Assembly: GCA_905250025.1 (NCBI GenBank)
Contig: CAJNOJ010000082.1
Location: 329,718 to 393,717, forward strand
Direction: 5' to 3'
Source of the DNA: Adineta ricciae
Taxonomy: Eukaryota; Rotifera; Eurotatoria; Adinetida; Adinetidae
Length of the DNA stretch: 64,000 nt
The translations under genes and the position numbers were made by a program. The notes below the pieces were generated by a model. It saw nothing but the letters and a program-made list of their open reading frames with translations. It was not told the DNA's origin and did not search any database. Below are positions 15,557 to 16,361 of this stretch, in pieces. Numbering within the stretch: the first letter of the stretch is position 1; each line of letters starts with the position of its first letter.

Positions 15557-16361
15557 TCAGCCAACAATAGGTGTGTGTGTAACAATTCCTTTATTATTAA
15601 CGATCACTCGAACACGACTTGTACTGTAGTCCAGTGTAACTGGTGAACCTTCGAGTATAGTCACAACATTAGTAAGACCTAAGAAATTGATTAATAATGA
15701 ATTTATTCACACATCGATGCAATCTTTACCTGTTTCCTTTTTAATTACTTTCACGGCATGTTCACCCTTCTGACCAACCAATTCCGGCCACTGAGTTTTG
15801 TTCGCTGTTGGTTTATTCTCTAAAATATGTATTCCATTTTTCCTATCGATTCAGCGTTCTGTTTACTTTACTTTTCACACGAATAACTGGTACACTGATG
15901 AATTTAGTCCGTTGAGCGCCCAAAGGTATTATTGGTATATGCACATCATTGATATATAACAGTTCGTTTTGTTTATTTCGAATCGCTACATTGATAGAAT
16001 ATGTATAACCTTTGGTAATTTGAGATGGAAGATATTTAATTGCAAATGCAATTGGAAATCGAGAAGCTTTTTCTGTTCCTTTGGCAATAACTTTAGCGGG
16101 AGCATCAAGTAAAGACACATCTTGTAATTCTACCGTTACTTTAGCACCGCGTTCAATTTGTACTCTCGAATTCTCAGGAAATAACACCCGACCACGAATA
16201 ACAAGTTTTTCTTCCGCTTTAGATGTTGGTGCTGCATCTAAACGAAATCAACACACATGCAATTGAATCGCACAGAAGACAAACAAAATGTTTGACATAC
16301 CGGTCAATGCCAGTACACAAACAATACAAATAAAGAAACCGATTCGACGTAGTGATTTCAT
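15557..16361 (-). CDS. Secreted YbaY-like domain fused to eglin/potato-I type protease inhibitor
   Basis: Four exons (16301-16361, 15872-16237, 15730-15819, 15557-15678) give 212 aa. Residues 1-20 (MKSLRRIGFFICIVCVLALT) are a clear signal peptide without a lipobox Cys. Residues about 27-140 match the bacterial YbaY/YscW-type lipoprotein domain: VIRGRVLFPEN, KVTVELQDVSLLDAPAKVI, PIAFAIKYLP and YSINVAIRN. Residues about 150-212 are a potato inhibitor I domain (WPELVGQKGEHAVKVIKK, then EGSPVTLDYSTSRVRVIV, ending TPIVG). The reactive loop EGSPVTLD is the same as in leech eglin c, so P1 is Leu188 and P1' Asp189. That predicts inhibition of chymotrypsin- or subtilisin-like proteases outside the cell. 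The introns show it is a eukaryotic gene, but the YbaY part suggests a bacterial origin. Confidence 0.85.

Follow-up and report, generated by a model that had tools for sequence, protein, structure and literature searches.

The potato inhibitor I family (PF00280), to which eglin c and CI-2 belong and which we take to be MEROPS family I13, is represented among the solved structures that we met by short single-domain chains. The YbaY/YscW proteins (PF09619; PDB 5wec) are lipoproteins of bacteria. Where extracellular proteins of animals have arisen by exon shuffling, the exons involved are of the symmetric 1-1 class, and to our knowledge the known shuffling modules of this class are all eukaryotic in origin. 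Horizontal transfer into bdelloid rotifers is well known. One worked case is that of N4CMT, in which, according to the accessible part of its description, a bacterial domain captured by bdelloids was fused to a eukaryotic chromodomain (PMC8885841).

In this study, we report a gene of Adineta ricciae that has features of all these systems. It lies in a stretch of 64,000 nucleotides (hereafter the window), which is part of contig C82; the genome searched comprises 130 Mb in 1033 contigs. The gene and its relatives probably encode secreted canonical serine-protease inhibitors which, judging from their sequences, appear to have been made by shuffling a horizontally acquired YbaY exon. Its C-terminal half resembles the potato inhibitor I family in a full-length Pfam match, a Trp-Pro-Glu motif, the reactive loop of eglin c, P1 Leu and P1' Asp. 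Unlike the solved members, however, it forms the tail of a putatively secreted two-domain protein and is split by a phase-1 intron. The N-terminal half shares with the YbaY/YscW lipoproteins the profile match, the predicted fold and a DVSLxDAPA motif, but it has no lipid-anchor cysteine, is preceded by an animal-type signal exon and carries an inhibitor tail. With the class 1-1 modules it has in common that it occupies one exon with phase-1 bounds, follows a signal exon and is paired with Kunitz and other secreted domains, whereas its affinity is bacterial. As to N4CMT, the union of a captured bacterial domain with a eukaryotic one is shared, and a gene of that kind is present in the same genome; as far as the accessible description goes, N4CMT is an enzyme of the nucleus known in a single type of fusion, while the YbaY genes are of secreted type and have three or four kinds of tail.

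Neither YbaY-inhibitor fusions nor rotifer potato inhibitors were found in the open-access literature (titles, abstract openings and the matches listed), and the accessible part of PMC3542185 mentions neither YbaY nor YscW. As far as open-access titles and abstract openings tell, and with this genome as the eukaryote compared, the reuse of one symmetric exon, coding for a domain of bacterial type, with several kinds of inhibitor is new.

Gene structure and predicted product

The initial annotation described one gene of 212 amino acids at positions 15557-16361, and this was confirmed at the level of the gene model: the minus strand carries one predicted gene of four exons, with a coding sequence of 639 nt (212 aa plus stop) that is interrupted by three introns (63, 52 and 51 nt, each GT-AG). 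The splice sites of this gene and of its relatives are predicted ones, placed by eye and pattern. The features are as follows, in window positions:

16301..16361, minus strand: exon 1, signal peptide (MKSLRRIGFFICIVCVLALT), ending in phase 1; hydropathy maximum at residues 9-19
16238..16300, minus strand: intron 1, 63 nt, GT-AG, phase 1, at the divide between signal peptide and YbaY; of equal length in the allele on C120
15872..16237, minus strand: exon 2, the entire YbaY/YscW module, symmetric phase 1-1 (Pfam; predicted fold matches 5wec)
15906..16169, minus strand: PF09619 YscW match, residues 44-131 (Pfam E 3.4e-15)
15820..15871, minus strand: intron 2 (52 nt, phase 1), where the two domains meet; each of the other five YbaY-inhibitor-I genes likewise has a phase-1 intron here
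15730..15819, minus strand: exon 3, a linker followed by the first half of the inhibitor-I domain, in an open frame without ATG (gene model)
15679..15729, minus strand: intron 3, 51 nt, phase 1, within the inhibitor-I domain; common to the stand-alone inhibitor-I genes
15557..15678, minus strand: exon 4, second half of the inhibitor-I domain including the stop codon (gene model)
15560..15799, minus strand: PF00280 potato inhibitor I match, residues 150-212, spanning intron 3 (Pfam E 1.7e-19)
15629..15652, minus strand: reactive loop EGSPVTLD, residues 182-189, with P1 Leu188 (15632-15634) and P1' Asp189; equal to eglin c over eight residues

The signal peptide proposed initially is borne out by a hydrophobic core, FFICIVCVLAL, in exon 1, and both domain assignments were upheld by profile HMMs. 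The PF09619 profile scored 56.7 bits against a cut-off of 22.6, over positions 14-102 of 107, and its match falls inside residues 27-140, where the YbaY domain had been placed. PF00280 scored 70.6 bits against a cut-off of 24.5 and was matched from position 1 to 64 of 64. The likeness of the loop to eglin c with P1 Leu188 had also been recognised correctly, the sequence EGSPVTLD being identical in the eglin c chains 1mee, 1cse and 1acb of the PDB. The hydrophobic P1 residue and the P1' Asp are those of a canonical loop, and Arg is found at P6' and P8' (Arg194 and Arg196), presumably where eglin c has its loop-holding residues. Inhibitor I78 (PF11720) was rejected: the window protein scores 22.5 bits (cut-off 23.6), and although the copy C81:256k just passes with 23.7 bits, PF00280 is the much better match in both (75.5 bits in C81:256k).

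With respect to the introns, it had been claimed that both parts of the gene contain them. This stands for the inhibitor half, which has one within the domain, but not for the YbaY half, which has introns only at its edges (signal/YbaY and YbaY/inhibitor) and none inside. The position of the intron at 15820-15871 on the domain boundary was correctly read, and a phase-1 boundary intron is found in all six YbaY-inhibitor-I genes.

The YbaY family in the genome

The profile searches gave at least 21 YscW matches and at least 29 inhibitor-I matches in the genome, both counts being lower bounds; the latter correspond to 26 loci, three matches being second halves of listed genes. Six loci have YbaY and inhibitor-I in the same order and on the same strand: the window gene on C82 and its relatives on C120 (95% identity to the window protein), C81:256k (53%), C81:261k (35%), C27 (37%) and C1 (38%). 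Given that only about 0.001 pairs with YscW just upstream of inhibitor-I on the same strand are expected randomly in 130 Mb, a chance juxtaposition of the two domains was rejected.

The window gene had been presented as a single chimera, which must be revised, as it is one of these six genes and YbaY has Kunitz, antistasin-like/Kunitz and MsrB tails elsewhere. Three loci of secreted type join YbaY to a Kunitz domain: C82:254k (Kunitz E 7.5e-18), C81:184k (1.6e-18) and C120:27k. The last is the allele of C82:254k (94% over 4.9 kb); its Kunitz exon has an open frame and an identity of 92% to that of C82:254k (tblastn; unspliced). At C10:886k, YbaY occurs with a sub-threshold antistasin match (E 0.0076; 17.2 vs 21.2 bits) and a Kunitz domain (E 2.4e-20). 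An unnamed cysteine-bearing exon lies between these two matches (C10:885-887k, L048). At C133:74k, a weak YbaY match (E 2.9e-5; 24.8 vs 22.6 bits) is combined with SelR/MsrB (E 1.8e-46), the exons having been joined by eye; the first MsrB exon is without an ATG of its own (C133:73.0-74.7k; L052 680-1700, plus strand). Since there are six genes and other tail types, the interest lies in a YbaY exon that can be reused and not in a lone chimera.

Other YscW loci have a different aspect. An open frame of 919 aa at C21:216.7-219.9k (L037) has a clear YscW match at 499-563; similar domains appear by eye to be repeated in this frame (C21:218k), which gave no further Pfam match at E 0.01. Eight loci (C143, C140, C305 twice, C4:138k, C110, C84 and C80), judged by eye from their ORFs only, are seemingly single-domain and have no signal peptide. 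It was also observed that C81, C82 and C120 each have a YbaY-Kunitz gene 70-97 kb from a YbaY-inhibitor-I gene, as would be the case if a single linkage group were present in allelic and anciently duplicated copies.

By raw count, all 10 modelled fusions have a phase-1 intron between YbaY and the tail. The intron between the signal peptide and YbaY is in phase 1 in nine of the 10; the YbaY-MsrB gene has no such intron and is in phase 1 on one side only. In the model of C81:184k, the first donor was set by eye, as the motif used by the script had forced a non-GT site. Owing to the phase-1 introns on both sides, the YbaY exon is symmetric 1-1 in nine of the 10 modelled tailed genes, and these predicted models have three or four partner types. 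The intron within the inhibitor domain is in phase 1 and at the same place in five of the six fusions (it is absent in C81:256k), and the genome's 20 stand-alone inhibitor-I genes share this intron, in 19 of them by a script that took the best GT-AG pair by likeness to known inhibitors and in the one on C18 by eye. As this phase-1 intron is common to the 20 stand-alone genes, the inhibitor half is placed on the host side, as a predicted member of an intron-bearing family resident in the genome. The suggestion that the gene arose by exon joining thus gains from both halves, the YbaY exon being symmetric and the inhibitor intron being that of the genome's own inhibitor family.

The P1 residue is Leu in the copies on C82 and C120, whereas C81:256k, C27 and C1 have Met and C81:261k has Lys; therefore, different target proteases are predicted among the copies. 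Four stand-alone inhibitor-I genes form a tandem array at C235:113-118k (L010-L014), all with P1 Met in the models.

Phylogeny and the number of fusion events

The YbaY tree included 31 of 80 bacterial rows, left by a 72% identity filter and originally picked as matches to the window query, and 15 rotifer rows standing for the 21 matches; in the inhibitor tree, 13 stand-alone rows represent the 20 genes. Trees with bacterial and rotifer homologs had been recommended at the outset. In the YbaY tree, a single clade (95/83) unites the six inhibitor-I rows with the antistasin-like/Kunitz one. The 15 rotifer rows are separated from the bacteria with a support of 56/73, a level compatible with one capture of YbaY or several and too weak to single out a donor. 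It must be noted that several rotifer YbaY rows lie on long branches flagged as unsure.

The chances appear to be about even that YbaY is a true animal exon-shuffling module in this bdelloid, that is, a secreted phase 1-1 exon which has received unrelated tails on three or more occasions (inhibitor-I, Kunitz with or without the antistasin-like domain, and MsrB), giving a lineage-specific class of secreted inhibitors with later diversification at P1. The MsrB fusion suggests that YbaY is a general secreted module which is not tied to inhibition. A rather unlikely alternative is that a single old fusion was spread by duplication of genes and of the genome and its tail was afterwards lost or altered, the phases being a record of that history or of separate YbaY acquisitions rather than of a general shuffling module. 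The AU test is compatible with it, as it did not reject a common clade either for the six inhibitor-I rows (p 0.435 for YbaY and 0.124 for the inhibitor domain) or for all nine inhibitor-tailed YbaY rows (p 0.334), and separate tail swaps are thus unproven by the trees. In the best tree the Kunitz-tailed rows are placed away from the inhibitor-I rows, on a long branch flagged by the tool, which also speaks for this alternative. Nevertheless, the antistasin-like/Kunitz row is nested within the inhibitor-I clade, beside C27/C1 (inner fork 93/58), and needs a change of tail even under a single fusion. Moreover, the MsrB and Kunitz tails are joined in the same phase and at the same junction, and at C4:510k there is, by eye, a YbaY gene of secreted type that has no tail and whose first intron is in phase 1.

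Fold and possible role of the YbaY half

For the YbaY exon, AlphaFold gave a model with a pLDDT of 87.6 from an alignment of 31 rows. This model matched PDB 5wec, an alternative type II secretion pilotin of Vibrio cholerae, with a TM-score of 0.82 (E 6e-11, 32% identity), and 2yjl, a type III secretion pilotin of P. aeruginosa, with a TM-score of 0.61. The YbaY half is accordingly modelled as a pilotin-like beta-sandwich. Residues 25-212 of the window protein contain no cysteine and the bacterial lipid anchor is therefore absent; the anchor cysteine is present, by eye, in the bacterial relative L054.

Our guess is that the YbaY half most probably acts as an arm that stabilises the protein or binds a partner, a mere spacer also being conceivable. 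Animals are not expected to possess a secretin system. An improbable reading is that the arm targets the inhibitor, binding the bacterial envelope so that inhibitors are delivered to gut or pathogen proteases. The match of the predicted fold to a solved Vibrio type II pilotin and the different P1 residues of the copies speak for it, as does the binding of secretins by pilotins reported in the accessible part of PMC6532946, where the pilotin is of a different fold. Against this, the YbaY half is strongly divergent between copies, the lipid anchor has been lost and the fusion with MsrB does not suggest targeting.

Bacterial relatives and the origin of the two-domain gene

A prokaryote-only collection yielded 161 relatives of the YbaY half, and the 80 kept reach 43% identity; the best E among these 80 of the 161 was that of a 41% match in Saezia. 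By their titles the 80 are mostly from proteobacteria, with one Chloroflexi and one Rhodothermales record among them. Together with the structural match to 5wec, these lipoprotein relatives agree with the bacterial affinity proposed for this half in the initial annotation.

Bacterial YbaY proteins may themselves have extra domains. The three multidomain relatives examined with Pfam (L108, L109 and L126) carry META, META plus NlpE_C, and MliC (a lysozyme inhibitor), not inhibitor-I, and further relatives are META-like by eye; inhibitor-like tails therefore occur in bacteria. This lends some plausibility to the complete two-domain gene having come from bacteria as a ready fusion that gained its introns later. 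Such an origin is nonetheless very improbable. The inhibitor-I profile had no match in the six frames of the 80 kept bacterial YbaY loci, while five of five control loci were found. In two profile searches of 398 Pseudomonadota genomes each, the identifiers of which suggest the same sample, PF00280 was found in three genomes (ORFs of 126-130 aa) and YscW in 86, and no genome was in both lists. In addition, the inhibitor half has the phase-1 intron of the 20 stand-alone host genes. Overall, no bacterial YbaY-inhibitor-I fusion was found in the prokaryotic sets searched. The plasmid tblastn matches (Haematobacter and Thalassospira) which touched both halves were rejected, being by eye YbaY proteins with other C-termini. 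A first contig scan with an alignment of the chimera found no relative, and its sole pattern fell in the inhibitor domain.

That the YbaY and inhibitor parts are two adjacent genes merged by prediction is hardly credible: retention of intron 2 would leave a YbaY-only ORF with a stop soon after, but the six copies agree in order, junction and phase, exon 3 is an open frame without ATG, and dN/dS is about 0.2 over the spliced coding sequence. The individual values were 0.20 for both C82/C120 and C27/C1, and 0.17 for C82/C81:256k, where dS is saturated (2.4). The sequences thus show purifying selection between alleles.

Proposed mechanism and significance

In the proposed explanation, the YbaY/YscW beta-sandwich would have been taken by a rotifer ancestor from bacteria, probably proteobacteria, a donor and a direction of transfer that we infer from the affinities above. 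An older eukaryotic YbaY as the source is possible, because the eukaryotes compared are represented by the present genome alone. In the captured domain the cysteine of the lipid anchor would then have disappeared, a eukaryotic signal exon would have been added in front, and phase-1 introns would have come to lie on both edges. As a symmetric exon it could have been shuffled onto host exons coding for inhibitor-I, Kunitz, antistasin-like plus Kunitz and also MsrB. The tail of the eglin/CI-2 type would present a substrate-like loop, with P1 Leu188, to chymotrypsin- or subtilisin-like proteases, which, as we infer, would be blocked by the standard (Laskowski) mechanism. The copies with P1 Leu, Met and Lys would span chymotrypsin-, subtilisin- and trypsin-like enzymes.

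If this is true, the combination of a captured bacterial domain, phase-1 introns and animal inhibitor exons would show foreign DNA feeding exon shuffling, and the order of events (transfer, intron gain and joining) would become testable across bdelloid genomes. A set of putatively secreted inhibitors with differing P1 residues has been named, and these are directly assayable.

Genomic surroundings

The window gene is flanked by ICA69/arfaptin and anoctamin genes, about 5 kb on each side, followed by ankyrin repeats; its nearest recognised neighbours are thus of animal type. The allele of the locus on C120 extends over 10 kb at 92% identity. In view of the predicted introns, the allele and the animal-type neighbours, contamination was rejected as a source of the gene.

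As regards the gene of the N4CMT kind, the N4/N6 methyltransferase gene is present in two copies, on C2 and C5. The chromodomain is present in the C2 copy, the sole one tested, as in the N4CMT of sequenced bdelloids (PMC8885841), and this agrees with a bdelloid genome. In the second N4CMT-like copy, at C5:990k (L145), there is an in-frame TGA inside the methyltransferase match, while the C2 copy is open.
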